Part shown: positions 3,821-31,500 of the stretch, piece by piece
Layout of the letters: every line of letters starts with the position of its first letter
How positions within the stretch are numbered: the first letter of the stretch is position 1
From: Nymphaea colorata
Lineage: Eukaryota > Streptophyta > Magnoliopsida > Nymphaeales > Nymphaeaceae
Assembly (NCBI RefSeq): GCF_008831285.2
Contig: NC_045145.1
Coordinates: forward strand, 6,572,802-6,636,801
Direction of reading: 5' to 3'
DNA length: 64,000 bases
Notes under the pieces: generated by a model
What the model was told of the DNA's origin: nothing
Seen by the model: only the letters and a program-made list of their open reading frames with translations
The model's database searches: none
Translations under genes and position numbers: made by a program

Positions 3821-3869
3821 TCATGATTCCCTGTACCGTGTAAGGTCAAATGTCAGAGTCCTCGAGCAG
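3821..3869 (-). CDS. SMC1: SMC1 coding exon 18 (terminal)
   Basis: Codons 1200-1215 and a TGA at 3821-3823. It encodes [16 protein letters not shown], matching the plant SMC1 C-terminus. Acceptor TTTGCAG|CTGCTC, after an 81-bp intron. Confidence 0.93.
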
Positions 3870-6295
3870 CTGCAAAGAATAAAATCGGAAATTAACATGG
3901 AGAGAGAAAGCGAGAGAGAAGGAGAGAGAATGAAGTGCCCAAGTGTTCACCTTTTATCACAATCCCTGCAAACTCCAATCAGTGCTTGGGCTTTCTCATA
4001 GAAACTGTCTTTCAGCGAAATCACAATGCACTGAAATCTCTTGTCATCCTTCCCCTCGTTACTATCAATCGTGCAAGACTTGGAGCAGATAAAACGGGCA
4101 ATTTTGGCAACATTAACATTGTCCAGTGCAGCATCAACTTCATCGAGTATGAAAAATGGGGTGGGACGGTAACTGAAAAGCAAAGAGAACCAATTAAAGA
4201 ATGCAAACTCCTCGAAACCGTCACGTGATTGTAATTAGCATCATGTGTTGGCAAGTTCGAGACAACTACACATTTAGTAAATTATACAGGCCTATATATA
4301 ACTAGAAAAACTTCTTTAGGTCATAAGCTACAAGTTGAAGCAGTTGGATGACCTCTTATGGGACTACTGCATCCACTCAGCATTAGCAAAGTACTACCTA
4401 AGAAAACAAGTCCATCAACATTGAACCGGCCCAAAAGAATCCTATATGAGATTTGAAATAATGAATGTTATACCGAATATTAAATTTACACGCATAAGAC
4501 TACAATTTCTTTGATGCATACATATATAGCTACTTGCCTATACCAGTAGTTGTGTATGGCAATCCTGTTCATAACAGCAACTGCCTCCACTTTTTAAGGT
4601 TCCTTTTTTACATTAAAACAGGTTATCAGGTGATCTAGAACCAATATAACTACAAATTGAAACATACCGTACCTGTGAATTGCAAAGAGCAAAGCGAGAG
4701 CTGCTACCGTCTTCTCTCCACCAGACAATTGCTCCATATCACGGAAACGTTTTGAAGGTGGCATGGCTGTATATTTGATACCATGTAGGAATGGATCATC
4801 TTCGTTTTCTAAGCTTAGGTATGCTGTCCCACCCATGTTAGGCGTGCTATTTGTGGTAAGCTCCTTGTATATCTTATCTATGTTGTCAGCAATATGGTTG
4901 AAAGCCTCCATAAACAACTCATACCTGCATCCAAATAGACAGCACAAATTCTCTCTTTAAACAACAAGACAATTACTAATAGGCAGGTAAAAACTTGCAC
5001 AAAGGGTATAAAAAAGCACTGAAAAGGTTTCCCTTACATATCATATCACACAAGGCTTAGCCTCCCCAATGAAAACGATTTCATGCAGTGCCTTCCCTAT
5101 TGGATATCACCTATGCCACATGGAACTCCTTGACAGCTTAGTTGTTAAGGTGTGGACTAGTCCACGCCTAGGCATGAATCCACACCCGTCGCTTAGATCC
5201 ATCACTTACGTGACATGGGTACGTGAACTTAACCCACGTACCCACTCCAGTACGCGGATACGTGGAAGTGGGTACGGCAAAGCATCGGGTACGAGTTGGA
5301 GCGGGTCTAGGTCAGACCCAATCAGAACCAAAAAAAATTGTTCAATTTTATACGAAATGAAGTCGAGCTCTGCAGCCTCACCAGCGTTTTTTGCAGTAGA
5401 GCTCTATCGCAACTATCACCGGCCGCCACGACGACGTTCGGCGACCCACAGCAACGTCCAGTGGTGTCCAGCAGCAGCCGGTGGCAGCCAGGTAAGTGTT
5501 TTTTTTTTTTTATTCGTTTCACTATTATAACTTAGGGTTCCGTTTTTTTATTTGGAGGTTTTCCGTTTTTTTTTATTTGGGGATGTTTTTGTTTGAAGAT
5601 TGAACTGAAAATCTATAGATTTATATACGTTTTGATGTTTGTTTGATTTTATGTGCTTATCTGTTGCTGCCACTTTTGTTTGGTTGCATTTTATTTCTAT
5701 CGACTATTTCGGCTGCCGATTTTGTTTGGTTGCTGCCACTTTTGATTAAGAGTTTGATGAATCTATCAGCTATTTCTTTCAATTCTCATCATCAACCAAA
5801 AAAAGTGATGCTGCCGATCAGCCAAGCTTATGCACAAGCCTAAAGAGACTAGTTGATTGCTTATTGTTTTATTCTTTGAATTTTCTGATCATTATATATT
5901 TTTGTTGTGCATCTTTTTATTATTTTGTTTGGAGACTTTTTTATGGGATTACATTTATGTACTATTTTTTTTTTCATTTTATCATTTTTGAGAATTTAAA
6001 AATTTGTTGTACCCGCATACCCATAATTTTCAAAATCACCGTACATGAACCCGTATCGCCATACCCATACCCGCACCCATGTGACATAGTCCACCAGTTA
6101 GGCGACCTTGCACATAGATGCGCCTAGACTGGACTAGGCGCTAGCACGCCTAATCCATGGGAAGGTGAAAAGTCACCTTCCCTTCAAATTAAGTCTTGTA
6201 ATTTTGTTATACACAGTTATACCATATATACTTATATTATATGCAGTTATATTATATAATTTCTGTTCTTTAGGTACAGTTTGTTGTACATTAAT

Positions 6296-6336
<41 letters not shown>

Positions 6337-8036
6337 AGTCATCAAGTGAAAGTTCCAGCCACACGTTAAGTACATATTCTATAAAACCAAATGAATTTTC
6401 GTATATATCGTATGTGCTCTGAAACATATTTTGTGGAAACTACGCCAGCCTTCTTACAACCTATGTCTATGGTAAAAAACAACTAGTTTCTCTTATTTAG
6501 TGCATGTCTAGCAATCAGACAAATACCTGCAGACCTCACTTTTGCAACCTGAATACAGATTTATTTTCTCATTTGTGAGGGTGTTTTTGTGTGAGATGTA
6601 TATTATATGTTATATGTACAATCTGTTGTAAACTTGTAAATTGTAATGTATATTATATGTACTGATTTTATATGATTTTTGTTTGAAATGATTCAAATGA
6701 AATAGTCAATAAGGCCTATAGCAAAAATAGTCTATAAGAAATGCAAGTATTGTCTAGTATCTAAACAAGAATGATGTGTTTTCTTTTGTGTATCAAACTA
6801 AGGCATCAGCTAGAACAGAACAGCACAGTTTTCCAGTATGTAAACAAGCTGGAAATGTACTGTTAATCTGTCATGTAAACAAGAATCGAATAGTTTTTCA
6901 TGTTTTATTTTTTGGTTTTACTTACGAAGTATAATCATTCAATTAGAACAGAACAGAACAATTTTTCAAGTTTTACTTGGAATAGAAGCTTACAGTTCAG
7001 TGAGTAAGTACATAATTTATTATGTAATGGTTAACATAACTAGAAAAACCACAAAAAGAAAAAGGTCGCCTTAACAACTAAGCTTGATAGGTAGCCGCAC
7101 TCATACCAAAACCCCGAATTGGTGCTGGTGCAGGTGTGGCTGCTGCTCCCACTCACCATTCACCAATCAGCAGCCAAGGCAAGTGCAGTGGACTGCACCT
7201 ATGCACAGAAGGCTTGACTTTGACTCAAGCTGGGGTACTGTCAGATAGGTTCGAAAATCACTAACTCATTAGCATAATCTCACAAACAAATCATATCTTA
7301 TGCTTTTTGATATGTAGTCTTTCTAAATTTTATTTTAGATTTTTTATATTAAAGATATGTGTTAGCCTCTGCACAGCTAACAAACTGTCCAGCGCCTTCC
7401 TCTGCTTAATTTTTCCTAAAACCACATGAAGCGCAGCTTCTCTCACGAAATGTAAATCTTCGTTAGGATTTAATTCCCTTAATCATGCTTAAGTACATAA
7501 CATGATGGGTTGGGTTAATAAAGCCTAACTGGACCCGACCTGTTACATGAAGAAATACTAAAATGAAAACGCAGAAACAGGAAATAACAGAAATAACAAT
7601 CTGTAAAATAAAAACTCTGCGCCTAACAATATGGTGCACTCCCACCGACAGAAATTTTGTGGGTCTAAAGACATAGCTGGGAAAATGACATATACGTCTT
7701 TGACATCATCTATTTCCCGGAAACAAGTAATGATTTTAAATTATTTAAGTCAAAATTTTCAAATATTTTGCCGGCTAAATTTCACATCCTTAGAAAACAT
7801 ATGTGACTGAAAAACACTAAATCCAGCATATAATTTAGACCGATTAGACGATGTTTTAAAGTGTCTAGTCCAGGAAAGACTAAACCATGCTTAATAAGCC
7901 CAATGGTCTAGAATCTAGATCTAACTAGACAGTGGCCAGGCAGCGAACCTCTTAAAAAGCATAATCAAGACTTCAAAAACTTTAAAAATGACCTGAGTTC
8001 TAAAAATAACTTGCCAAATGGAAAAGAATTTTGAAA

Positions 8037-8076
<40 letters not shown>

Positions 8077-11000
8077 ACACACACACACACACACACACAT
8101 GCACACGCGCAAGCATCAGTGTCATAGAAGTTGACTGTGCACAAAACTTTAATATGTACCTCCTCCTTTTCACCAAGTTGTATTGATCAGTTACTTCTTT
8201 TTCTTCTCTCCTAGCAGCTTCAAATTCTTCAACAGCCTCTTTCTCTTTTTCTTGGAGAGCTTCATATTGATCTAAGGCCTTTAGGTTGGGTGCTGTTCTT
8301 TCAATTTCTGATGTTAAGGAATCCATTTTTTGTTTGAATTCTGCCTCCTTTTTATCCCTGTCAGAGCTTTTAATATCCCTGAGACCTGATTTGATTAGTT
8401 CACTGTAGTCAAAGCTTACTGTTTGTACAGAAGAATCTATCTCCATCGGATCACCAATGCTTGGAAGTGTAATCTGTTGCAATTCACAGTTCTCCAGTAT
8501 ATCTTTCTTGCGTGATTTAAGCTGCTCAATCAGGGTCTCCTGTTGGCATCATACATTCTCAGTAAAATGAAGGTTGGAATAATTTCCCTCAAGGGGCAAA
8601 TTAAAATGAGTAAATGAAAAAGGCAACAAAAACAAGTAAAGGGTCTCGGCTTAGGACTGCACTTACACACATCAGCTAAAGGAAAGATAAAATAAAATTT
8701 TGCATAGTCCTTCAGAACAGACAGCATTCAAACTTGAAGAACATGCTTAGGTCCACAGAAACAAAACTATCATCAAACATCAAACCTTGGAGCCAATCTG
8801 ACGCTTCAACTTGCTAATGTCACCCAGAACAAGGTTTGCTTTCTTCTTTAACTCAGAAAGGATATTTTCACACCCTTCTACCTTTGATTTCCACTCTGCA
8901 AATGCAAAGAGTAAAGGGCCAAGTCAAAACACAGAATGGAATAGCTTTCACTAGAAATATGTCAAATTCCATTTCCCAAGATCATATTGAGATCTTTACA
9001 TCGCACGTGTTGGAAGGATCAAGATCCCAGAGTAATGTCTGACTCTCTTTGAAGACCATTGTGGAAATATAATATATAGTGTTTGTGAAGCATATTTCAT
9101 TACACAATATAGCATGTCAGGAACCTCTTCCACTGTCTAATATAACATTAGAACATTTTCCTCAGTGTTTACAATAGCCAGCTAACAGTGATCACTGAAA
9201 GTTATTTTTTCAGCAGCATATTATTAGCTTAAGTCGTCAACATCTCCTCGCATAATTGTTTCCCTCATGTAGCTCAGGCCAAAAAAACAGTAACAAAAAG
9301 TTGCACCTGGGTACCACTTAGGCTTACACGATCCAAGTTGACTAGTCATCCATAAGGTGCCAAGCAGGGTCATTGAGGAACTTGGAGCCTAGGCAACAGC
9401 GCACTATCAATAACACTTATCAGTTACCATGTGAAAAAATAGATCCGTTGTGAAAAACTAATCTACACCGCATTTTGGAATACATTACACCTGGACATGA
9501 CAGGGCACTTACTGACACGGAGTTTCTCTCTCCCAATAACCATCATTTTAAGTGGCAAATATCAAAAGGATGACTACCAGGCCAGACAAAGCACAAGAAA
9601 CGGAGACTCATCAATCAGTGAGAAACAAAAAAAAAAAATTTTTCATTCTTATTTTTTGGAGAATGAGAGAGAGAGAGAGAGATTTTTTCCCAGGAAAACA
9701 TTGGAACTCAAAAAATTTAAAAAAAATAGAAAAAATATTAAATTTTGAGCTTTTTACCAATTTCATTATTGATCTAAATCCAAAACAGTTATTAAAATAT
9801 TAGAATAAACATCAAAAAATAAAATATATTAAAAACATTTTTTTCTGAAAAAATAAGGGAAGAAAAAAATACAATAGAAAAGGGATATTTTCATTTTGGT
9901 GCTTTTTGAAAATATCATGATTTTTATCTTTCTCTTTCTTCTAGCTTAAAAAAAAAATGGGAACAGCAATGTTTGTAACAATGTATAAAAGTATCATCCA
10001 AACATAGAAAAAAACGTCAACCAAAGAGATGCCATGGAGAGCAATATTAATTATTGGAAGGAAAACTGCATATAATGCATAAAGAATTAAATGATGAAAA
10101 AAACCAATAACATACATGATGCTGTTTCCAGTCCCAGTCTACCCGCAAGAATTTTCTTATGCAAACGAGCATTTTGTAATTGAATGCTAGCATGAACCAA
10201 TGAGATATCTTGCTTTGTCCCTTGAAGATCGATCACATTCTGTCTAAGGTTTTAAATTTTAATCACCACGAGTTTAACAGCTATTATTGGATACCATTTT
10301 CCAATTTGTGCTTCTTCTGTGCAAAAGATAAAAATGGAAAGTCTCAGACTCATATACCCTAGGAGGTTACTAGCTTATTTAATACCCAATGACAATACTA
10401 ACTTATTTAATCTAGTTTTCTGCGAGGAGGACAAATTTGGTTGCTGCTAGGAATGACTGGTACAGGCAACGCACAAATTAGTAAATATATATGAACTCAG
10501 CAGAAAAGGTTAAATACCATCAACTTCAGCCTTCAGCTCTTCCATATATCTTTCACCTTCCTCCATTGCCTGTCTGATATCAGAGTCTTTCTTGTGCAAT
10601 TCCTTCAGTTCTTCTTCTAATGAACCGAGAGCAGAAGAAAGTTTTGAAACTGGAGCATCCATGTCACGTTTCCGTTCATATTCCAGTCTACAGCAGGCAT
10701 CAAATTGTTAATTAAGACACCAAGAAAACAAAAAAGTGCTACTGGAAAAAATGAAGTAGAGATGCAGAGGCAACTGAAAATCCTAAATCCAGAGCATGCG
10801 ATCAACAAAAAACAAGCAACTGGGATCCCCAGACCTTAGCACAAGAAAAGGTGTAATGAGAACGATGCTACAGCCCACAGGGGAGCCCCAAAAAAATTGT
10901 GTTTTCAGGACCACATCGTGTTGGCTTAGTGAAAAATATGCAAGACAGCCTATTTTAGTTTCTCGAGTCATCTCATGTACCAAATTAATTATGATAACTT

Positions 11001-14000
11001 TACCACTTACCAGCCCAGCATGGGACAAACACATCAACAGGTGTGTAGTGTTCAATAGGTTTTAGAACATACATCAGCAAGAATACCTATCTGCAATCTG
11101 CATGATATACCAGGTCAAAAATCAAGAAACCTATGTCCATAATTCAACTGAAATCAACTCAAGAGCCCAAATGTATGTATCTCTTTTCCTTCAATTTCCT
11201 CACAAGATAGAAAGCTGGAAGCTTTTCCAATATCCGCTTCTTTACTTGACAATCATTGCAAAGAACCATACAACTTAATATGAAATGGCATTCCTAAAGT
11301 TTAAAACATAGTCACAAATAACGTCTCGGAGTTTTAAATGGCGAGGTTTTTCTCGGTATAATACGGCGAGCTTGAATAAAAGGGGAAAAATATGATAAAC
11401 TTTTTAAAATTTTAAAAAACTAAAAATGCGGGAAAAAAAATAAGTGAGAAACTGATAACACAAACATCACAAGATAAGTAGATTTGTAACAAATAAAAAA
11501 TAGAAAAATGAAAAAAACTGTTTGACATTAAAAAAACTGAAAAAAAATGAAAAAAGTGAAAAAAACATTAAAAACGCGTTAAAAACACCTTTTTTTGTTT
11601 ATAGTGATTTTTTTCAAAAAAAATGCCTTTTTTTAATTCTAAACGACCATTTAATTTATCGCGTTTTTTTTCAAAAAAAAGTGTTTTCTATGACTACGGT
11701 TTTAAAAAATGAATGCCAAAGGCCATAGTCACAAATAACGTTTTGGAGTTTTAAACTGTGCAGTATTTCTCAGGTATAATACGGTGAGCTTGAAAAAAAC
11801 GGAAAAAATATGATAAATTCTTAAGAACTTAAAAAAATAAAAATGGGAGAAAATAAAATAAGTGAGAAACTACTAACACAAACATCAAAAGAAAAGTAGA
11901 TTTGCAACAAATAAAAAATAGAAAATTTAAAAAAAAAAACTGTTTGGCATTAAGAAAAATGAAAAAAATGAAAAAAGTGAAAAAAAACATGAAAAAATGT
12001 GCTTTTTCGTTTTAATGTATTTTTTTAAAAAAAAACACGTTTTTTTTAAGTTTTAAATGGCATTTAATTTTCTCTCGTACGTTTTTGTGACTATGCCGAA
12101 GGCTAAAGGGATAATTAATATGAAGCCCATTAAAAGAAAAAAATGAGTGCCTTTTTGCATCCCAAGATTTTGTGTTTTACATGTTTTTTTAATTTTAAAC
12201 TTACATATAACCAAGAAAAGCTAAAGTGATATGCTTACTAAGAAACTGCAATGCCGATGGCCCAATACATTTCTTCCCATACATGCATTGAGACACTCTC
12301 TCTCTCTCTATGTGTGTGTGTGTGTGTGTGTGTGTATACACAGTTAGCCACAAATATCACGATATTTTCAAAATATTTCCAAAAATATTTATTGTGATTT
12401 TATCGAGATAAAAATGCGAGCACTATCTAAAGCTGCGCTCAAACAGGGGAATTGTTAGTATTTTTGAAAAAAAAAAATTAAAACTTTAAACTGCACATGG
12501 TCCATTTCACTTTTAAAAGGGGTAGTTTTGTAATGAAAAAGTTTTAGTAGGGCAGTTTTGAACTTTTTTCTACTTTTAATGGCAAAAACAGAGAAGGGGA
12601 AGAGGATTAGGACTTTTAAGCCATTTCTCCCTCAACAATAGGGTTTGGGGCTTGGGCATTGGTGACGTGAGGAGAAAGGAGACCTGCGGTCCAGCAGGGG
12701 GCCTTTGGGGCTTCAGTATTTCCTTCACTCGGACCTGCTGTCTATCTTTTAAGTTATAACTATTCAATAGAGGAGCAGCAAGCTTTATGCCTTCAAGTTC
12801 ATTTTTCTATTTTTACATAATTTTTTTATTTTTTGTTTAAAAAAATTGCCAAGATTTTCCCAAGATTTTTCCGAGAAAAATAGCTTCGTCAAAAAAAACT
12901 TGAGAAAAACCTCGCCGACATTTTCCCAAGAACGATATTTGTGGCTATGACACACACACACTCTCCGTTCAGACACACAATAAATCACCAAGCACATGCA
13001 GAAGTACTTTTAATGAAGATAAAAAAGATAATTGGTAAGATCCAGAGCAATCACATACTGGTACTTCAGTTTTGACAACTGGTTGTTCAAACTAAGTCTT
13101 CGCTCTGAGTTTCTTTGTGCAGTCTTGAGTTGATTTTCCTCATATTCACGAATGTTATTAACCCCCACAGATTTACTAAAGTCTCGATAAATCCTGTCAA
13201 CAATCTCATTGATCCTTGTCTCAAGCTTGGTGATGTCTTTAGCTCTGTTTGAAATGTAAGTCTCAAACTGTGGCACCAAAAAGATCAATGTGAGCTACCA
13301 GAATATAGTCACTGCAAGTTACATTTTTAAGGGAGTTTATAACAAAGTAACCTTTTGTCTTTCAGGTTCAAGACGACTTATTTCTTCCTTCACATTAATT
13401 CTTTCGTGGTTTAACTTTGAAATTTTGTCTTCAATAGTTTTCTGCAGGAGAACCCACTCGTTAAACTAGCACAAACAAAACCACATATTTGGAGGCCAAA
13501 AAACAATGGAAGTCTGTACAACAAACCGGATCCTTTTCTGGCATCAAGGTGTATTGCCAGAAAAATGGAACAGCAACAGCATATTCTCCCATAAAGAGAA
13601 ACCTAAATATTCCAAAAATTTCAAAAAGTGTTCAAATTCTGCACTTAAAAGCTCGCTGACCTTTTCCAGATTGGAATAATCAATTTTTTTTTCAAGGCCA
13701 GTAATTTTTCCAGATGCATCAGCCTCTTTCATTTTCATGTCTCTGATTGAGCCAAGCTTTTCCATTTCTGCTTCATAGTCATCTTTATTCTTCTTCAGAC
13801 CTGAAAATGCAAGAAAGTATCTCCACGTTTCACAAAAACCAAATGTGAAAAGAACTAGAAAAATAAATCTAAAATTAAAATTTTACAAAACGAAGTCAAA
13901 TTTTAATGGAGAAATAAAAACACTCAATTTTGTATTTCTTCCGTTTAACTGCATAAATCACACAGGCAACAGGAGGCTAAATGAAAGAAATCTAAAGTAT

Positions 14001-17000
14001 GCTTTTGTATACCACCAAAACCATAAAGAATACCAACCTTTAATTGTGTGTTCATCCCATTTAAGTGACCGAGCTTCCATTCCACCACTAATTCCTCCAG
14101 TCATTGTACCAGACTTTGTCAAGAGAATACCATCGACAGTCACCACTGTGATTTATTGAGTCAGGAGATTCAGGACAAAACCAGAAAGAACCAATTTAAT
14201 ATAGACGAACTTGTGTATAAGAGCTTGCCTTTATATCGTTCTCCACTCCAACTGAGGACCTTGGCCTCCTCAAGAGTATCACAAACTAATGTATTTCCGA
14301 CAGCATAAAGTACAGCCTTCTCCAAGAAGGGGTCAAATGTATCACTATTAAGGTCATACACCACATCTTCAAGAAATCTAATGCACCAAAACAAATTGGA
14401 AACAACAATTGACAGAACCTACTCCAATAGCATGCATTACTTCTAGGATGGGATTAAAAAAAAAACAGAGCGCGAGATGCCTAGGAGTCACCAGACTAAT
14501 TTTATGTTGTTCGAGAACCGGCAACTTTTAGGGAAACAGAGATACCGATTAAAACCTTTCTTTCTAAAGGATATTGAACCACATCAAAAATTAGCCTCGC
14601 ACTTCCTCCCAGTGTCCGCAGCTTCTCATGCACAGGCTTTACCCGGACTGACTGTATAGGTATGAAAGTCTGAGGTGGAAGTCGTTGTTCCTTTAAATAC
14701 TGAAATGTGAAAAGAGAACCTATTATCAACAAACACACACCAAAAAACAATATGCACGCATATGAGGATAAATGCATGTCCATGAACATATTTACGATGA
14801 CTGTTTCCCCAACAAAATGGAGAAGAGAAGAATCAGTCAACAACCTGTGAAAAGAAAAAAAAAATGCCCACAAAAAGGTATATTTTTCGAACTCCAAATC
14901 CACAATGCAAGAATATAGGTCCATAACTGTCTCGCTATAGACCTTTTTCCTGCAGAAATAAAGATACAAAGATAGGAAGCAGGTGGAGACAGAACAGACA
15001 CTAAGGAGCACTCTCAGGTGAAGATTCAAGTGACAGTGTTGCGAACAATCCACAACATAGAATAAGCTCTAGGTAAAGCCCATTGTTCTAAAGCTCGTAT
15101 AAGTTGTCATTCATGCCTAGTAGTAGCTAAGCCAACCAAGAGGCAAAACAAATCTAATCTAGTCCTATCCAAAACGAGTTGGAGTTACAATACCAAGATA
15201 ACACGGTTTGGAGTATTGAACACCACCATCCTAACCCTTTAAGTTTGTCACAGATAATAGAAGATGAAGTATACTTAGGCATACTTGACACAGCTCACCC
15301 TAATCCTTCATGTTCACTTTCGAAGGCTATGTAGAAACAATCTCTTTTGGCCATCAGCGAAACAAGACCCTTTTGTTTCATACGCATGTATGCTTTCTTC
15401 GTTATCTTCAAATTCAGTAATACTACTTCTGCATGGAAACTGACATAAGTGTCAGAATCAGACACCTTCATTTATCATACATGCCTACGTACTCTCATAC
15501 ATACATGCAGGCACGTGTGGGTGTGGGTGTGGGTGTGGGTGTGGGTGTGTGCATTTTCGTTTGTGGGGGGAGGCGCAGGTGGTTGTGAGCATGACATAGG
15601 TTTTTCCACCCACTTTTTGTTAAAGTCATTGAATATAAATAGACACATTAATAAAGGGAAAACCTTTCTTTGTATGCTCTTGCTTTTTCTTTTTTTTATG
15701 ATTTAATTATCTTCAAAATCAGTAACATTACTTTTGCATGGAAAGTGGAAACTGACATGGTTGTCAGTATCAGATACTTTTATATATGCACTCATGCATC
15801 TTATTTTCATATAAACATACATATGCATGCACACAAAAACATACATATATATATACATGAACAAACAAATACACAGCACATATATATATAGGCAATTGAC
15901 TAAAGGAAAGGGATTTGTGTGTGATGCCATGTGCCTAATCTTCTTCCATTTATTTCTAACCAAAGAGGAGGGTTGGCAACTCAACCCCCTACCTTCTCCT
16001 TTTCCTAATGTGACAGAAAAGGAAGAGCTTCTTTTTTTGTCCAAAAAAAAAAGCAAGAAAATGCACAGTGATTAGAAGGATCCAAGCAGTGTCAGTCCAA
16101 ACAAGAGATAAGCACAGATACTTAATTTTTATAAAAGTACCTAGCTAACATAAAATTACCTTAATACACTCTTTCCCTGTTTGCTCATCATCAACTACAA
16201 CAGCATCCATGAATTTGCCCATTGCAACAGTAATTGCAAGATTGTATTTCTTCTGAGTTGGCTTACAAAGACCCGTCATGCGCCCGTGGACACCTGGGAA
16301 CAGTCGCTTGAGACTTTCAACTGCTTCAGATGATCTTCTATCTCTTTCACTTTCATGCATATCAGCCTTGTATTCTCGTAATTGAGCTTCAATTTCACTC
16401 ACCTTCGCTTTTAGGTTGTCATATTTTGCCCTGTTAGAATTTCAAAAATAAAAACGAAAATAATATGAAAAGACAAGCAGCTTGAAGCAAAACAAAAAGA
16501 TTAGAAAAAAAATCCTACATAAACAGATCAAAATATTTAATCCATGCAATGCAAAAGCCTTAGTTTCTTACGCAAATTACAGGAGCAAAGAATATTTGAA
16601 GTGACTCCACAAGAAAAATCATACATAAGAACTGGAGCACAAGAATGTTGAGTGACTTCACAAGAAAAATCAGATATTGTTTATAGCACACTAACTGTAC
16701 TGGAGAACATATCAACAGATTGAAGCACCTCCAAAATTCAGTTTCCGTGATCATTTTATCAAATATTAAAGAACATAACAAGCAAAGATAGAAAGAAGGA
16801 TCAAGGCAATTCAGTTTAGCTACCTAGATTTTCGGTGTCTATCTTGCATAACACTCAACTCATGCCTCGATTTTGTTAGTTCTTTTGTGTTCTCTGTAAT
16901 TGCATCAGTGATCTGTTTCAGCCTTGACTTCATTTGGCTCTCTTGAGAAGCAAGCTCTTTCTCACGGTTTCTTAGTTGTTCGAGATTTTCTTCCAAGTAT

Positions 17001-20000
17001 TTTAGAGCTTCGATATCAGCTTGTTGCTGCGTATCATACACCTCTTTCTCATCCCTCAGTTTTGCAGTCTTCAATCCAGCTTCCTCCTTACTGAAATGGA
17101 TAAAACTTAAAACATTAGCAATAAACTGAACAAGGGAAGAAATGATATCATAGCACCTTGATGAAGCAAACATTTAGATCCCACAGAAAGTTGTTCAAAC
17201 TTCAAAGAACACAATGAAATAGTCAAAATAAGCATGAAAGCGTACAGATAATAAATTCTAATGGTTTGTTTGAGTAGCTTATAAATTTAATTGACAAACG
17301 AATGTAAATCTATAGCTTTTTACTATTGGCTTTTTAGTTTTTAGTAATTTACTACTTGTCCATGCAAGTACTATCACAAACAAATCCTGAAAAAAGAAAT
17401 TACTCAAAACTCTATAGATTCCAGTATAAACAGTCACTTCACCTAATGCACCAGCATTCATCATCAGTATTTTTCAAGCTCATTATATGTGTGCATTTTT
17501 TTATCCATTTTTTGGTCCTTCACCTAAACACACTAAGTTCCCCATTCTTCCCCCGGCAATATTTATTTTTCCAGCCACACAGTTTCCCAGTTTTAGCTTC
17601 AACTTATTCAGGAAGGTAATCGTTCAACTGTTTTTCTGAACTCCATTACAGTGATAGGGTAAAACTATAGGAGAGAATTGAAATCATTGAGCACACAGAA
17701 CAGATGTACCCACACATGCATGTACATGCGTCACACTCACATGCACATATTATCAATCAAGCCCGAAAAGAACCAAATATACTCACCTTTCATTCACAAA
17801 AACAAAGGTGAACATGTAATTCCCCATTCCTTTTCTCATTACATAGTTTTGTGATTGTTAGGCAACAAATCAATCTCATATGTGATTTAATAAATTATAA
17901 GCTCATCATTAATCTTTTAGGTATATGCAATTGTAAAATAACTTGTTTGGTTTGTAGCTGCGTACATAGGCTAGTTGGTCATTAGAGATATCATGTACTA
18001 TTCTTTTATATCAAGGATTTATGCTATATCAGGTAGCTTCTAGTGCTCTTTAAAGCTTGTGGAATGTTTGGAATTTATTTCCTACATTCTTATGTTAAAG
18101 GTTTTTTGGATTAACAATCTCATGTTACAAATTGTTATTCCTCCTCCCCAACCATTCAGTTATTATTAAAAGAGAAAACACATTCCTGTATCGGGTAGTA
18201 TGTTTCACATAGGAACATACCTTTGCTTACTAAAAAACCCAAAATTTTGAAGTTTGGCCAGCAAATTATAAGGAAGAATGTGCTCGTAAGGAAATTATTG
18301 TGACATATGCATCACACACTCCCATATAATTAGAAGAATAGCCACATACATGCGGAAAAATATCTCTGTACATGGAACAGCATATGGTAACAACCAACCA
18401 AACAAACGTGCTCAGCTGGTGTGGGTCATCCACATCAACAGTCCACGTTTTTTGCTTTTAAAAAAAAATAATAATTTAAAAAAGATGCTCAATGTATTAA
18501 GTCGGCCATATCAAACAACAGGAACCAACAAAATGCAATACTAATTGCCAAAAATAACAACAAAATTCAAGCAATTCCCAATGGAAAACCTACAACTAGC
18601 AACTTACAACAATAAAACAATTAAATTTCATGATAATACATTAAACATTTCATAGCATGATAACAAACATGATTGAAAGTTCAAAAGATCAAATTTAGTG
18701 AAGTTGAACAACTAACTAAGGTTTACAAGTAATATTGCAAAAGAAAACGCTCACAAGTAAATATGAGTGCAAAACCTTACCATTCTTAAATTCTAAGTTG
18801 CTAACTTCTAAATCTCTAACTCCAATTTCACAATCATAAAACAAAAGCTAAAATTACTAATCTAACTTTAAAAGAAAAAAGGAACATAAATCCTCAAGTA
18901 TAATATGGTCCACGTTAACGTTGCTTGCAGTAAAATAGTCTTCTATTATAATTCTAATGAACAAGGAAAAATATTAAGAAGATAATGCACATACATGTGA
19001 CAGTTAAAAGCTTAAAATAACATGAAATATTCAAGCATAATAATATATGAATTGCAATTATAACTATAGTTATAGGTGTGCATGTACACATAAATATACT
19101 TTTAATGCAAAAAATCACATGAAATGATGAAACAACAAAAAAGAGTGAAAAAAAATGCACAAGAAACAGAACAAAAAAAAATGTCCCAAAAGAAGAAGAA
19201 AAGAAAAAGAAAAGGTGCATGTGTACACACACATATTTTTAATGCAAAAAAAATCACATGCAACAACAAAAAAGTAAAAGCTGGACAAAAACAGAATAAA
19301 ACAAAACTTTCAAAAGAAGAACAAGGAAAAAAAAGAAAAAAAATTAGGTTGTCGACATAAAAAGCCTAGGCTATTGTGTATATGTTTTCAAATAGTAAGC
19401 CACATAAAACCTGCTAGGCTAGGTGAACATCCACCTACGAGCCTAGGCAAGCCTCTGACAATGCAACTAAGAAGGAGAGCAAACAAATGTTGTATGAAGG
19501 CATGAACCAAAATGGTACACAATAAGACTATCATGATCATGTAGAAATTGGCAATTTGGCAGGCACCTTTAAAGTTTTAAACAAGAGAAGCACGGCAACT
19601 TATTCATTAGGACATTGCACTCATATGACACAAAAATGGCTGGTAGTCTCATCACCAATAAGCCCTTCATAATGTTGCATAATAGGACTTCCTAAAGTTT
19701 TTAATCTTATACTTGCAGGCTCTTGAAAGCTTATAGATGCCCTACTCAGCTGAACAGTTCGAGGTAGACCCGCAAAGAATCTAATGTCAATAATATATGC
19801 TTCAAGAAAATAAAAGCAAAATAGGGAGAATAATGCCTTCCCACCAAATTAATTTTCCTAAGACGCAAAGACAAACTAAGAAGATCTTAACAATCAACAA
19901 AGAAAATATCATCAATACTTAAAATAAAAAAGAATTACAGAATGTAACATCCTCTCAAACTAAACTACCCTTGTGATGATTCCAGCACCAAATGAAGTCA

Positions 20001-23000
20001 TACCAGAGTAACAAGTTCTAGAAAACAAACAATTAACAAATGCTTACATCCTATGGTACTCCTTAATCTGAGCATCTGCAAGCAGAAGTTTTTCCCCTCC
20101 TTGACCTTCTAAATTCAGATTATTTATAGCTGTAGCTACATCATGCATCTCTTTTTGAAGCCTTTCTACCTCTTTAGCATGCACTTTCCTTTCGCCTTTC
20201 TTCTTCTCTAGTTCCTTCTTGGTGCTCTTAATTTTTGACGTAACACGAGAAATCTCCTCCACCAATTTCAAAAGCTCTGGTTTCTGTAGAAACATTTGGG
20301 TTGTCATCAAAATGCACCAATGAGATAGATCAAAAGCATTTAAATTGACGTTAACCAAATAATTTCTTTTTCTATCTAGTTCTATAAATACGAAATTCTT
20401 GTAATATTATTCAAACCATAGCTAATGCAATCACTTCTTTCACATTGAATTTGTGATCATCCTGAAGCAGATTGGAATCAGTCAGGAAAACTCAATTCCC
20501 ACCAATGGGAACCATGATTCTCCTGATGAGGGACTCCAATGTCCATAGATTGGGAATCCCAATTCCTTGATGAATCCTGATTCTCTTCTAATGAAATCCA
20601 AACACAAGCTTTGAAATCCTTATTTATGTTACAAGGGCAACATGGGCACAAATGCACACATCAGTATGCGTTGCAACATTTCAAAAAACTTGTGTGTGTG
20701 AGAGAGAAACAATAAGATCTTAAGGGAATGAACACCAAAATAAGACAAATAATAGCTCCACTGTGCCCTAGCCATGTCCCACACTTGAGAATCATGATTA
20801 CATGAACAAGGTTGAGATTCTTAACTCCCTTAAAAAATGCTTAGTATATGTTCAAAAGATAGGCATAAAAGCCGTAATATATTGACGAAGACCATTAACA
20901 TATTAAAAGAAAATTCCACTCAGTTCTACAAGGATTAACATGATATTTAACCAAAAGAAAAAAGAATAAATTATATAACACAATGTTAGAACAAAAATAA
21001 TATACTACACATATATTTTCACAGTACATTTCTTTATTCATTTCATTTTATGAAAACTATTCCAACATTTAGGTCATGTTTTCCTTAACACCGCGCCAAC
21101 GCATATTTCCACTTTATCTTATAGTTTTCCATTTTCAATTTCAACTAGTGTGTTGTGTTAGATATTTACCAAAAGAAAACCCAATTTAGTAAAATTTTCA
21201 AGCAAAGCCTTATTCAAAAATTACATTCAATTGCTCCTGTGTATATGGTCCACAAATCATAATTTGGACAAGAATGTTAATTCCTGGAAGTTTGTGCAAG
21301 TAGCCATAATGCTTCCTACAGCTATTACAGACCACTTGACTACTATCCTCCAAAACTTTCAAAGAATCACTTGCCTAATCTGATTATCGTACTTCAAAAT
21401 TTCATTTTGTGTCTTGGCAAATAGGAATGAAACACAACTTTCAAAACAATAAGAGATACTTATTGACAAAAGAAAACATCTACTTCTGCAAAAATAAGCT
21501 CCAAAAACTGTCTTTCAGTGTGTTCATGGTGCTTTACATAGCATGAACATTGTTACAGATATCAAAGAGTTTCAAATATCATAACAGTTCACCAAAAGCA
21601 GGTGAAATGAAAAAAATGGGAACTAATCATGATATGTTCAAAATATTCTGCAAGAATATAGTGAGATTTTGATGCATCTTTTGTTCCTTGAGGAAAACAT
21701 TTTGAATAAGCTTTAATCTTTTTCTCATTTGAATTTCTTTGAACATTTTTGTATCTATTTTCAATGTCTATCAATGTTTTCGTAAGAAAATTAGTAGAAA
21801 ATTCATAAATTTCACAATAATTCTGTTATTTTTCATATCTATTTTTTTGTGTTTTGAGTTTCCAAGATCATCCGGAGGGAAAACAAACTTTTTGATAACA
21901 CTTGAGAAAACCTAGCTGCCAAAGACCTGAGAATGATATTTTTGGCAGTGTTGGTGAATGGTATGGATAAAACCTACTTTACATAGATGGGCAACATTTC
22001 TTATAAGAAAATCAAGGATTGCATTTTGCAAGTATCGCATATACACACATATATAATGTCACATAAATGTGAACTTAGACATGCGAGATGAAATTAAAAA
22101 ACATCACATAGCAAAAGCGTAAGATAAAGGTTGTTTATGAGACCAAGCTAATCAACCCATGAGTTTATGATTCATCTAAAACACTCAAGTCAAAATCAAT
22201 TCTGATATGCAGGGTAACTTTGACTGCAATTGACATGGATGCAGATTGAATTTGGTGGATGGATGAGAACCACACCTGCACCACCCAGTGAGTGTGTGCA
22301 ATGTGGGTGCTTTGACTCCCATAAAGAGTCCATGTGACATATGGCAAAGCTTTATATATGGATTTCAAAGGTATGTGGGAAATATGGAGAGGATTCTAGG
22401 TTTTTCACTATGAGATCAAACTGCTCCTTGTGGTTGTTTTAAGAGGCAGAAAATGTAATTAAAAAAACAAATATAAGGTAGATTTGAAATTGACAAAGTA
22501 ACAGAAAAAATAAATTTTATCAGCTTGTATAATGCATACCCAGGTTCAAAGGAAAAAGTGCTATGACTATTGACCACACCATCAAGAAGACCTCCAAAGG
22601 TATAATTGTTTTGGTAGTATACGTTGATGATATTATCCTAATAGGCGATTGTGATGAAGAGCTTTCGACTACAAAGACTTTTCTTCAGAAGCACTTTGTC
22701 ATGAAAGATCCTGATCACTTGCCGTATTTCCTGGGATTGAGGTTTCCCATAACAAGGAAGGTGTAGTTTTGTTTTATAGGAAATATGTACTGAACCTATT
22801 GCACGATATAGGGATGTTAGGAGCCAAGCTTGTTAGTCTTCCTATGAACTCACGTCTTCATCATCATGATGATCAATCAGAGGTAGTGAATTCACGATCT
22901 TACAGGTCTCTCATTGACAAACTTCTTTATGTCACTGTGACTAGACCAGACATTAGCTTTCTGTTGAGCTAAGTCAGCTTATAGAAAAGCCCAAAAAAGT

Positions 23001-25520
23001 TCATTGGGATGTTGCATTGATGGTTTTAAAATATTTAAAGTCGCCCCCAGGCAGAAGCCACTTATTCAAGAAAGGAGAGCCTCTAGAGATTGTTGCTTAT
23101 AGTGACGACGCTGACTATGCAAGGCCTATTGGCAACAAAAAATCCACCATGGGCTTTTGTGTATTTGTTGGAGACAACCTCATATCATGGAGAAGCAAGA
23201 ATCAAAATGTAGTTTCTAGGTCAAGTACAGAATTCGAATATAGAGTAATGGCTCAAACGGCTACTTAGATGACTTAGGCTAAATCTATGATGCTAACAAA
23301 TCTAAGTGTTCATGTTCCTCTTCTTATGAAGATGTATCGTGATAACAAGGCTGCCACCTACATTGCTAATAATCTAATGTTTCATCAGAACAAACCATAT
23401 CGAGGTGAATTGTCATTATGTTCGGATCTCATACAAAGAGGTGTTGTGCCCAATGTTATCTGTATCGTACGATACGCACGTATCGTATAGGTTTAAAAAA
23501 CCTATATGGTACGCTTATACACGATACGCTCGTGTATCCTAAGCGTATCGCTCGTATCGTACGATACGGATTAAAACACAAAATTCTTTATTTTTTAAAC
23601 TTTAAACACCCTTCCCTCCCTTTCTTCTTGTATTTAAAGACTCCAAGAGACATCAGAGATTTTGCCCATTTTCATTAAAAATAACCGAGGATTCATCGAT
23701 TTGGGAGATATTATCGTTGAATTATGAAAGATGATAACTATATGTTTTGAACTTATAAAATTATGATGTAATCTAAGTCCTAAAACTCCAAGTCCTAAGG
23801 CTCTAAGTCCTAAGATTCTATAAAATTTTCAAGTTTAAAATTGTGATGGATGCTTATTATGTTATTCTGAATATCTGATTTCTTATTTTTGAATGTGTTG
23901 TTGATACACATGAATGTTCCTTATGTATGATGATCTTTTTTATATTTGAATACATTTTTCTTGATTTCTGATTTTTTTGTTCATTTTTTCAGATTTTTAA
24001 TGATTTTTCTCTATTTTTTCTGATTTTTAAATATTTTTTAAAATTAAAAAATTAATTTTACGATACGCTACGCTACGTTTGCGATACGTTACGATACGGC
24101 GCATAGGTCGGCCCGACCGATACTCGATACGTTACGCCTTTTATAACATTGGTTGTGCCTACTATTCATGTAGCCTTTGAAGATCAGGCAGCAGATATAT
24201 TTACGAAGGCCTTCCTATTGTGCCTACGATTTTTCTAGATGTTGTAATAAGAAGCTAAGCATAGTTGATATATATGCTCAAGCTTGAGGGGGAGTATTGA
24301 AACTAGAAAGTTCATGTTCAAGTTTGATAGTTTTCTAGTTTTTAGAGAGTTAAAGTCCTCTTTAGGCATTTCTTATATTTGTGTGGTTCTCTTATGTAAG
24401 GGAGACTTGTCGACCCCTAATCTCTCACCAATTTGGTGCATGTTAAGAGTTGTTGATAAAGATGAGTCTATGCTTCATAAAGCTTATGAAATGTGGGACA
24501 ATATGATTGAACAAATTCAATGTATAGTTTTTAAGAAAGAAAATAAATGCATTGCACTTGATAATTCAGAGCTCTTTGATCGCATACATACAATATTAGT
24601 TGGAAGATGGGATAAGAGCAATACTCCTTTGCATTGCATGGCTCATTCTTTAAATCTAAAATATTATACCAAAAAATGGATTAAAGGAGCTCCTGGATGT
24701 GTCACTCCAAATCTAAATAGTGAGTTATCTAAGAACAGAATAACATGTATGGAAAGACTTTTTGCAGATTGTTATACCAGAAGACAAGTTGTTTGTGAAA
24801 TTTTAGTTCTGAAGATGCAGCAGCAACAAGAGAAGATGATGGCATAAGTCCTTTTGATTGGTGCCCGTCTTATGGATCAATAATGCATGTGCTTTAGAAA
24901 CTTGCATTGAAATTACTATCACATCCTATTATATCATTGTTTTGTGAAAGAACTTGGAGCATATATGGTCATATACACAACATTAAAAGTAAAAACATCA
25001 CTAGCCAACGTGTAGAGGACTTGGTTTACGTGCATTCTAATTTGCGTCTTCCTTCAAGGAAAGAAAAAGAATACAGGTATTTTTTTACTATGTTGTTTTG
25101 CTTTACTCATTTTCTTATGTTGTATTAGATTTATTATATTTTTGTGGTCAATATTTTTTATTGGTTAAGTTTCATCTTTAATAAAATGCAGTGTGGATCA
25201 TCTCAATATTGGGATGTAAATCCAGATGAATTTGACTTCGATAGAGAATGCAATTTATATACTGCTCACACGGGTTTAGCTGATCATGTTATTCCTTCTA
25301 AAGAGTTTGATGATGATATCGTTGAAAGCATTGAAGAAAATCAAGATATTGGTAGAATTGGAATGTCACTCTGATTGATGATGGATGAAGTATGAACTGC
25401 GAACTCAAAACTAGATTATATTTCTTGTTCAATTAATCATTGATATCATGATTTGCAATTTTGAATTTGTTATTTAATAATTTTGTGGTTTATAGACAAT
25501 TTCTGTCATACTATATATAC

Positions 25521-25559
<39 letters not shown>

Positions 25560-28500
25560 TAATAAGTTAATAATAATAATAATAAATACCCTCACCGCAC
25601 CGCCGCACCTAAATTTTTTAAGATGTGCCACCCCGGCACACACACTCAACACCTATGTAACATAGTTGATAATGATTTAGATACATTCACCACAAACTTT
25701 CTTTAACAATAGAACTCATTTTCCCATTGGGAAAGAGGAAGGTAAATGTTTTAAAAACATGAGTAGTAGGCATAGTGCATGGTATTGGAGATAAATACAT
25801 CATACGGGACGTGTTTTATTTTTAAAACGATCTACTCCAATTTCCAAGAATCGCAACCTTAAACGCAATGTGCCCTCAACTGAATGCTACCAAAAAAATG
25901 TGCCATAAGATATGAGTAACACATACCATATCACATCAGCATAGTGAATAAGCACACATGTTTATTTGACATCTACTTTCTACTCATATAAGTCTAAAGG
26001 AACACTTAAGTGGAGAACTTGATCATTGTCATGCTGAATCTTGGATCCAAATCCCATGGAGGTAACCTGTAGATTGACTATCAAAAAATTTATGGAAAGC
26101 AACGTTGCAGAAATGGTATCATTACTAGATCAATGCAAGAGAGACATTAGCAAATACATGTGCATATAGATAATGGAATTTCTGACAGGAAATTTATACA
26201 GAAGATGCACTGAAGTATAAGTGTGGCAAGCAATGTTGTAAAAGGCGTATAGCAAAGTTGCAGAGATGGTATCATTACTAGATCAATGCAAGAGAGACAT
26301 TAGCAAATACATGTGCATATAGGTAATGGAATTTCTGACAGGAAATTTATACAGAAGATGCACTGAAGGATAAATGTGGCAAGCAATGTTGTAAAAGGCG
26401 TATCATAACATGTATCGGTCGGGCCGACCTATACACTGTATCGTAATGTATCGTAAACGTAGCGTAACGTATCATAAAATAATTTTTTAATTCATAAAAA
26501 ATTTAAACAATTAGAAAACATAGAGAAAAAAAATCAAAAATCGGTAAAATCAGAAAAAACAAAAAAGAAATTGAAAAAAACATGTTTTATATGAAAAAAA
26601 AACTCATCACATCATTCATAAGCCATAATATATTGACAACACATTTAAAAATGACAAATAAAAAAATCATAATAAACATTCATCACAACTTTAAAGTTTA
26701 ATCAATTGTTTTAGTCTTACATTACAAGAAACGCGTACAATATGTGTTATGCGTATAATACACATTTTTTTCACGTTTTTTTATTTTCTGGTGTCTTTTT
26801 AAAAAAGACGTGTTTTTTTCACGTTTTATACGACTAACTGTGTTTTGGCATATTATACGTGTCTTTTTCGAATAAGACGCTTTTTCTGTGACAATGAGAA
26901 AAACTAATAAAACTTTCCCCTCACAACGTTTAGACATGTTTAGAAAGAGGGATAGAGAGGTTCTTTTGTAAAAAACCACAAAAAATCATTTTATCTTTGT
27001 ATGGTACGATACAATAGGCCTGGGCATCGGGCCGGGCCGGCCCGGCCCGGCCCGCTTCCCCTCCCGTCTCCTGACTCCCTCACGGGTAACGTGAGGGGAA
27101 GTGTTTCCGGCGAGCCCCCTTCTTCAAGTGCTACGCCGATTAAAGATCAAAAGCAGCAGAAGAGGAAGGATCGACCGTGCTAATCGCAACGGTGTTTAGC
27201 ATTTTGCATTTGAGGTTGGATTGTAGATTGTGTTTCTATCGTCTCATCAAAATCTTTGGGTTGGAGAACGGAGAAGGTACTCCGTCTGATCGATTCTAGG
27301 GTTTTTCTGCAATTAGATTGAAAGAATCGTGATTTTGGGATTCTTTGGGTGTAAAGATAAAAGGGATTTGTGTTCTTCTTGTTCGGAATCGTTCCGATAT
27401 AGGCTAGCGTTTAGGTATCATCAGGAAGATGGCCGGCCAGGGTCAGAGGCTCAACATCGTTCCGACGGTGACGATGCTCGGGGTCATGAAGGCCTGCCTA
27501 ATCGGTGCCACAGGCCCACGAGGGGCCACGCCCTACTCAAAAAGAGGAGCGACACACCGACGCCCTAACCGTTCAGTTCCGGCAGATCCTGAAGAAGATG
27601 GGTGACACCATGAAGACATCCACTTTCGCCCTCACGGAGGCCAAGCATGTCGCCGGTATAATGTCAAGCACGTCGTCCTCGAGAACGTCCGATCCACGAC
27701 GCTGAAGGTAGGGAGAGGGGGAGCGGAGAGGAGGAGAAAGAGGGAGAGGGGGAGCAGAGAGGAGGAGGAAGACTGGAAGAGGGATTGGCCGAGAGGGGGA
27801 AAGGAAGGAAGGGGAGAGGAGGAGGGAGACGGGAAGGGAGAGAGGGAGAGGGAGACGAGGACAGGAGGAGGGGCCGAGGGGGAGCACCGAGCGGGAGGGG
27901 GAGGCGGAGCCCGGAGTCGTGCCGGGCCGGCTTATCGGGCCCGAACCCGACCCGAGCCAAGTTTTTCCCGGCCCAGGCCCGGCCCGACGCCCAGCCCTAC
28001 GATACAAGGGTGTATCAGGTGTATCGTACGATACGGCCCTCGTATCGCACGATGCAGCCGATACGCCTACAATACACAATTGAATCATGTATCGTAAGCG
28101 CATCGAATAAATTTTTCAAACATATACGATATGTATCGCACAATACAAGCCCGTATCATGCGATACGGATAACACTGGTGGCAAGGAATACTGAGACAAC
28201 CAAGAAGAAATCATGATAAAGAAAGGATCCAATAAGAGAAAATATCATTAACATAACCAGTTAATCATCAGAACCATACATTAATCCATTTATAACATCG
28301 ATCTAACACCAGCTACTGCCATTCCTAGTATCAATGGATCTTGTCACTAAGGCCATAATCTTGAAATAAGGACTTCAATTAGGAGGTAACCCTGTTTGTA
28401 CAAACCTTCCCATCTGAAGTCCAACTTGTTCATGAACATGTTGCTCAAAATGTCACTAATTTTAGCAATGAAAGGTCCTAATGATGACATACATCCCCAA

Positions 28501-31500
28501 TGAAAAGCGGCTAAACATAATTTGAGACATTTCAAAACTTTTATACCAGAGGAACTTTGATGTGTTATTTAGGTCCAATTTAAGAAGGCAAATCTTCTCA
28601 ACTGTATGAGAGACTGAAATGGCAGGTATATTTTATATTGGAAACATGCCAAGTATCAAGAACAGGATCAAGGAACAAGGTGAAAATAACCTTTTTATCG
28701 AGTTCGCCTGTTTTCTTTGCAATCCTCTTCTCAACCAGCACCACCTCCTTCAGGTATGTAGAGTTCTCCTTGTTCTTCTCACTAATATCAAGCTCAGATT
28801 CTTCCTGTACCTTCAACTTTTCCTCCAGAATCCTATTTTCTTTTTCTAGTTCTTTGTTTGTTTTCTCAATATCCTTCTCCGCATTGAACACTTGCCACAA
28901 AAAATGCACCCTTTTCAGAGATTTCTGCATGGCAAGTTAAAAGCCATAGGTTTACAACTGAACACATAAATCCATTATATGAAGTGTGACCAAGATACTA
29001 GAAATTCCTCTAACCATCCAAAAACTACATGTTGAAAAAACAAAACAAATGACAGCGGCTTTGGAAACATTTAATGTACCACTGATCCATAAGAGCTAAT
29101 AACAACAATTAAAATCAGCACCAACAAGACGGGAAGGTTGCTGTCTGACTTTTTTCTAATTTCTTTGGACAACTCAATAAAGTGATGAACTATGCACAAT
29201 CTGATTAGAAGTTTTCAAAGTAAGCAATAGGATTCCAAGTGATCAAGAACTATGAAACAACTAACTGAACAGGCAGAAGTTTATGTGGACCTCTCACAGA
29301 TGATGGCTTCCTGGAACCAAAACTGTCTGTCTGAGTCATATGGGTGTGGATACAGGTTCGGTTATGGGTACGGAGATGCAGGTACAGCTAGGAGAATTTA
29401 GGAAATGTGAGTACAGGGGTAATGCAGGGTAAATATATGAAAAATGCCACAAAAAATTCAAAAAGAAATAACATTTAAATAAAGAAGTAATATAAATAAA
29501 AACAGTACATGTTAATGACCAATAACTCTCAAAAATAGAATGTAAACTGAGTTACAAACAAGCTAAATCAAGTAAAAGTAAGTAGTTTCGATCCAAAAAG
29601 CACCTAAGTGTGTCTAAGCACCCGCTTTCTGTGTCGGTTTATCATTTCCTTTTCCTTTTTCTTTTCATTAGTGGCTGCTTCTTTTTCTTTGCCCTATCCA
29701 ACCCAAACATTCGATAATCACATCTAGTATATCGTACTTCACAAACATCACCTTCCACTGAATGTCAAAGATCATATATGAGCCTAAGACAATGTGTTTC
29801 ATCAATCAGGCATGCTCAACTTAATGGGCTCAATAAACTCGTCAACTTTGATTAGGAACAACCATATGAAGTCATAGAAATATCCATTATATAACTCATT
29901 GGACTTTCAAGGTCACAGATAAAAAGAATATATCTACCCACCGTTCGTCACATCTATACACATATGCACACATGCAAATATGTAATTCTTAGAATTATCT
30001 AGTCAAATTATCTATAGTTATCCAATTTGTGAACTATAAAAGAATGTCAAACCATGCATACCAACTCATCCTGCAAACGCAGATGCTTCTCAGCTTCTTC
30101 TTTTTGTTCCTTCTTCTGTTTCCGTTCCAGCACAATAGTCCGTTTTTTCTGATAAGCTGACGCTGATTTCTCTTCAGCCAAAGCCTTCTTTTCCTCAAGT
30201 TCATCATATTCCCTCTTGCATTCATCAGCCCCAGATATTTGCTCAATTAGTGCAGTAAGTTCCTTAGGATTCTTTGAAGCAATTGATTCAACATCTCCCT
30301 GGAGCATGCAAAATTCACAACAAAAAAATACCACTGTAAAGATACGTTGAATAATGAAACAAGAAGTAATTTTATGCCAAGGACGCTTCAAACAAAACAG
30401 AATAAGCCCAGGACATCATTAAACCTCAAATTTCTTCTCTGGTTAAGCTGCCAAAGAGTTGCACAAATCCTCACCACCCCACACATACAATAAGAGATAA
30501 ATTTATGGTTACAAACATGACTGCATGAAGTTGACACATAAAGCCTCTGAGTCAACCTGCTATCAACTAATGGCCACCACCAAGGTTCATTATAGAAGAT
30601 ATATCATTATTTCACTGCAAAAAAAATCCTCATTTGCTTTATTAATGCTAAAATAATAAAATATCCATCTATGTATGCGAAACCAAGATGTCTGATGTCT
30701 TCAAAAAAGTTCGAAAATAAAACTCCAGCACGAAGTTGAACGATGAAAGAATAATTTACAGAACCCCACTCAAACATGTAGGTTCCTAAGTTCCTAACAT
30801 ATGAAAAGTTCAGAAATAGCCATCAAGGAAATATCTCCCAATCATTCACTCTGTCAATGATAGTTGATGGAAATCATTTAAATAGATATTAAATTATTTA
30901 TTTAACCCATATTCAACAAATATCATGCTCAGAGTCTAACGGTGAGGCTTTTTACTCATGTATTTTTGGCAGAGTCTTCCTCAGGAAAATCTTGGAAAAT
31001 TTTTAAAAAATGAAAAATCCCTAAACATATGTCAAAATAAAATAAATGAAAATCAACAAGAAGACAAAATGATAAAAGGATGTTTTTATGATGACAAAAA
31101 TAATGATAAATAATCTAATTTAAGTTCAAAGTTTAATGCATGATGATATTAACATTAAAAAAAATAAAAACCAAAACAATGGGAAAGAACACACAAAAAA
31201 ATCGAGAATAATACATTAAATTTATCTTCACTTTTTTCAAAAAAAAAAAAAAACACATTTTTTCACATTCCTTTCACTTTTTTTGGTTTAACGTTAATAT
31301 CACATTTATGCAGAAAAAACATGATACTCATGGCAATTGTTCAACCCTAACAAAGAAAAAATAGATCTCTCTCAAAAAAAAAAAAAAAGCCTCTCCAGGC
31401 AGAAAAACCACTTTGATGGAAATAAAGTTCATGAGGTGTCCAATTTGTGTGGTTGATGAGCCTCTAGAGAGGGGCAATCTGTAATATAGTGCATTCTGCT

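Follow-up and report, generated by a model that had tools for sequence, protein, structure and literature searches.

Positions 14339..14574 of the minus strand are best read as a 236-nt U12-type AT-AC intron, intron 7, lying within the hinge of SMC1, a reading supported by the DNA sequence, the gene model, signal scoring and junction enumeration. To a genuine U12-type AT-AC intron at 14574..14339 of plant SMC1, removed by the minor spliceosome, we assign a probability of about 95%. This assessment draws on the sequence elements themselves, a unique restoration of the reading frame, continuity with solved SMC1 proteins, snRNA genes able to pair with the intron, and likeness to the CBP20 intron of the same genome. 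In the proposed mechanism, U11 and U6atac would pair with the donor ATATCCTTT and U12 with the branch-point core CCTTAAT, the terminal AC would be taken as the 3' splice site, and hinge exons 7 and 8 would be joined; if removal failed, retention or exon skipping would lead to an early stop.

The window, by which we mean the whole 64 kb stretch of DNA analysed, carries the SMC1 gene at 3821..35904 on the minus strand, running from ATG to stop with 18 exons and 17 introns and encoding 1,215 amino acids. The model was built by joining minus-strand open reading frames via anchors and GT-AG scoring, with introns 7 and 8 placed by homology. The joined exons contain no internal stop and comprise 1,215 codons plus the stop, confirming the 1,216-codon frame described in the earlier sequence-only reading, which counted the stop. 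The predicted protein aligned with PDB SMC1A (7w1m_A, which we take to be the human protein) over residues 10-1214, hinge included (E = 3e-229), and a single gap, of one residue, falls near the intron 7 junction. Across the 408 Mb assembly (783 contigs), a 50-amino-acid SMC1 query matched once, and a hinge-family search returned eight places. Four of them are SMC1, SMC3 and two loci that we assign to SMC2 and SMC4; the remaining four lie on small contigs, are not plant-like and have an open frame under code 6 alone. The SMC1 gene in the window is the sole plant-like copy recognised in the genome. The small contigs with SMC-like genes (C340, C444, C185 and C390; L008, L010, L020, L021, L022 and L024) have longest frames of 338-1,117 codons when TAA and TAG are decoded as Gln, as against 103-165 under the standard code; judging by these frames, the contigs are probably contaminants from a ciliate or another organism using code 6. 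Scans of the genome-contig and viral-contig collections for relatives gave none.

Exon 7 (125 nt, 14575..14699, minus strand) and exon 8 (110 nt, 14229..14338, minus strand) both encode hinge sequence, exon 7 ending ...FDVVQ. Joining GTTCA to ATTTGAC across the intron yields VVQFDPFLEK. The ends of the intron, set by homology and frame, are AT and AC, with the donor reading ATATCCTTT from 14574 and the terminal AC at 14339..14340, exactly the letters and coordinates first proposed. For six terminal combinations we enumerated the junction pairs that keep the frame and contain no stop, 34 in all (GT-AG 7, GT-AC 10, GC-AG 1, GC-AC 2, AT-AG 8, AT-AC 6), and only AT 14574 with AC 14339 added no residues. 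The next-nearest pairs, GT-AC 14582/14353 and AT-AG 14574/14345, each add two, and all seven GT-AG pairs add at least 19, which bears out the claim that no GT-AG alternative restores the hinge. Sliding the junction also permits TA-CA and AT-AT ends, outside these 34 pairs, with loss of the consensus at the first bases. Placement inside the hinge likewise held up: Pfam SMC_hinge matches residues 1-69 of the 114-residue spliced hinge peptide, with the junction at residue 42/43, and the read-through peptide matched no family in the same Pfam comparison. The intron sequence matched a single location in the whole genome.

The signals within the intron are those of the minor class. The 5' splice site, ATATCCTTT (14566..14574, minus strand), agrees at nine of nine positions with the U12 donor ATATCCTT(T), the published consensus being ATATCCTT (PMC2831892); the full match claimed for it was therefore correct. 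The branch site also stands near the 3' end, as had been noted, with its core CCTTAAT (14347..14353, minus strand) perfect at seven of seven. Only the core is perfect, since the nonamer GACCTTAAT scores seven of nine against the branch-site consensus TTCCTTRAY (PMC5932401), the mismatches being GA for TT at its first two positions. The remaining 16 of the 17 SMC1 introns all fall short of a U12-type score (donors 3-6 of 9, branch cores 3-6 of 7). Under a first-order Markov null, the probability of a 9/9 donor at a set position is 2.3e-5 and that of a 7/7 core within 8-14 nt is 0.0022. Chance is a poor account of these signals even once the 17 introns and the small number of possible placements are taken into account.

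Several points weigh against the reading, among them the two mismatches in the nonamer, the branch-site spacing, the U4atac search described below and an exonic copy of the donor. The core ends 8 nt before the end of the intron and its 3' A lies 9 nt before the last base, as against a spacing of 10 in the CBP20 and SMC3 introns of the same genome; depending on the A chosen and the way of counting, this either reaches or falls slightly short of the optimum of 11-13 nt that PMC3584512 cites. The pyrimidine share from -20 to -4 is 0.47, compared with 0.35-0.82 in the other 16 introns, one of which is poorer in pyrimidines, so whether a polypyrimidine tract is lacking is not clear-cut. A second perfect ATATCCTTT occurs at 8857-8865 on the minus strand, a decoy U12 donor inside coding exon 14; because this copy sits within coding sequence, the 9-mer by itself is not diagnostic.

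In the SMC1 model, a stop falls at codon 627 if intron 7 is retained, at codon 622 if exon 8 is skipped and at codon 659 if intron 8 is retained. Since retention and skipping both end the frame early, full-length SMC1 from the sole recognised plant-like copy would need the intron 7 splice. We infer that SMC1 transcripts use the ends 14575 and 14338 and that their splicing is U12-dependent; this step may also limit SMC1 output, and cohesin output would depend on the minor spliceosome. The downstream intron 8 (83 nt, 14146..14228, minus strand) is of the GC-AG kind (AAAG/GCAAGC...CACAG/TGG, where / marks the junction), a point that the sequence-only reading had missed, and its lone in-frame GT-AG candidate inserts extra residues. 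Exon 8 is thus flanked by two introns with non-GT donors.

Genes for three of the four minor snRNAs were found in the whole genome above the Rfam cut-offs: U12 at one place (88.9 bits), U11 at one place (75 bits) and U6atac at five (best 97.6 bits). The Rfam model for U4atac had no match in the genome, in a search that is unable to show absence, and no Rfam model matched within the 64 kb window at gathering scores. Motifs able to pair with the intron are present, namely GTAAGGAA in U12, AAAAGGG in U11 and AAGGAGAGA in three of the five U6atac loci. The genome also encodes a CENATAC-family gene (E 1.4e-28) and has DIM1-family matches at three places; the divergent one of these could be DROL1, by our assignment.

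We weighed three other accounts of the locus. A GT-AG intron of the U2 type that leaves an in-frame insertion in the hinge, such as 14545..14367 on the minus strand with 19 added residues, has in its favour that seven in-frame, stop-free GT-AG pairs exist (six with slightly different anchors) and that the best of them reaches 12.8 in our home-made score, although the 15 modelled GT-AG introns score higher, at 13.4-15.4. It would, however, insert residues where the SMC1A alignment has a gap of one residue only, and it offers no explanation for the perfect U12 donor and branch core; we consider it very improbable. Such GT-AG sites in the hinge, including the weak 14545..14367 pair, might instead serve as cryptic sites or give an isoform if minor splicing fails. 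Handling of an AT-AC intron by the major spliceosome has precedents (PMC2831892, PMC8280824), but the U2-type AT-AC introns described for sodium channel genes all have G at +5 (PMC2831892), whereas SMC1 intron 7 has C at this position besides the complete donor ATATCCTTT and the core CCTTAAT, making this account highly unlikely too. Finally, the apparent contaminant contigs in the assembly invite the suspicion of a pseudogene or assembly error in which the intron would be meaningless. Against this stand the open 1,215-codon frame over 18 exons, its E value of 3e-229 to PDB SMC1A, and the position of the sole recognised plant-like copy on a contig (C8) of 25,082,955 bases, and we regard the suspicion as scarcely credible.

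The SMC3 gene of this genome likely carries an AT-AC U12-type intron as well, just past the hinge, which the sequence-only reading had also missed. The assembly is plant-like in content, an Arabidopsis SMC3 query matching exons at up to 88% identity, and C1:30796995-30797652 reads TTCAAG/ATATCCTTT...TTCCTTTACTTTTCATAC/AGATAGAC, joining RNAIQ-E-IDQDIT. The joined peptide aligned without a gap at the junction to the solved SMC3 chains 6yuf_C (presumably fission yeast SMC3; E 5.4e-8) and 6wg3_B (presumably human SMC3; E 3.4e-6), the latter alignment having a gap a few residues upstream; these alignments are weaker evidence because the region is coiled-coil. Of the 138 pairs here that keep the frame and are free of stops, two leave the residue count unchanged, AT-AC 30796995/30797652 and AT-AG 30796997/30797654. 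Seventeen pairs are GT-AG, and the nearest of them (30797015/30797654) adds six residues. Because this pair adds so few residues and shares a fair U2-like acceptor with the 3' end of the AT-AC intron, a GT-AG reading keeps some weight and the SMC3 case is less certain than that of SMC1. The SMC3 intron lies 37 residues after the GGMTGG motif and the SMC1 intron 54 residues before the corresponding motif of its own protein, and this difference in place makes a shared ancestral intron unlikely.

Donor scans around other cohesin and SMC genes covered regions rather than modelled gene limits, SMC2 and SMC4 having been named by reading open reading frames. On the gene strand, the 20 kb SMC2 region has no donor of the form [AG]TATCC[TC]T and the 30 kb SMC4 region has two, one near a different gene (in our reading a response-regulator-like open reading frame) and one at 15481004. 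The 30 kb SCC3 region, scanned on both strands, has two sites on the gene strand and one on the other; of the former, one is upstream of the first SCC3-like open reading frame, and 22833285 has no open frame for an exon edge. These donor scans of the SMC2, SMC4 and SCC3 regions gave no supported U12 intron, a verdict that does not extend to the SMC4 site at 15481004. In 191.8 kb scanned on both strands, a non-random set of regions picked to cover these genes, there are five copies of ATATCCTTT. Three of the five sites (SMC1 intron 7, SMC3 and CBP20) have a branch core and AC within 1 kb, the core CCTTTA[CT] having been included only once SMC3 was seen; the other two, the decoy in exon 14 (8865) and a site in L028, lack them.

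A cohesin gene that needs an inefficient spliceosome for its full-length protein would tie chromosome cohesion to minor splicing. Human CENATAC is reported to favour AT-AN minor introns, and its loss leads to chromosome segregation errors (PMC8280824); in Arabidopsis, according to work cited in PMC11039992, AT-AC introns are impaired by DROL1 mutations. Since both genes appear to carry AT-AC U12-type introns, at different places in the hinge region, the SMC1:SMC3 heterodimer could conceivably be gated jointly by AT-AC-specific minor splicing (CENATAC, DROL1), so that the cohesion of plant chromosomes would be linked to the activity of the minor spliceosome. We hold this to be an improbable idea, the more so after the SMC3 junction enumeration; the pairing of SMC1 and SMC3 was noticed after the fact. 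AT-AC introns in both genes would offer a direct test of cohesin as a shared plant target; if regulation is absent, SMC1 intron 7 is merely another stable plant minor intron. Land-plant minor introns are described as very stable, with cell-cycle control unsupported as their general reason (PMC10639083), and in PMC7367187, which tabulates four plants, 13-26% of U12 introns are of the AT-AC subtype. At3g54670 (SMC1) is listed among splicing-related genes in a table of PMC545797. The titles, abstract openings and passages searched held no statement that SMC1 or SMC3 of plants has a U12 intron; the intron may be catalogued already, as supplements and the databases U12DB, ERISdb and IAOD lay outside that search.

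SMC1 intron 7 adds to an already known class of minor introns. CBP20, whose AT-AC U12 intron 4 was reported in all ten plants compared (PMC5932401), is a close reference and served as the positive control. In this genome the CBP20 intron is 719 nt long and reads CCAG/ATATCCTTT...TTCCTTAACGAGCATAAC/GCAG, with the joined frame DYDPGRGGYGKLVQREL; like SMC1 intron 7 it has a ATATCCTTT donor and an AC end, here with the core CCTTAAC, but it belongs to a different gene and has a better branch nonamer (TTCCTTAAC) and a spacing one nucleotide longer. The SMC3 intron shares the same donor and AC end, with TTCCTTTAC as its branch site, and differs in occupying another place in a paralogous gene. The minor intron of human SMC3, retained in Roifman syndrome (PMC4667643), likewise sits in a core cohesin SMC gene, though in SMC3 rather than SMC1, and we liken it at the level of the gene and not of its position or subtype. 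The rare U12 AT-AC intron in an essential cohesin gene that was originally put forward is therefore supported as an intron yet is less exceptional than claimed, given this human minor intron and the AT-AC one in the SMC3 of this genome. Within the known context of plant and human minor introns it is ordinary in kind; what merits a test is the apparent presence of such introns in SMC1 and SMC3 together.
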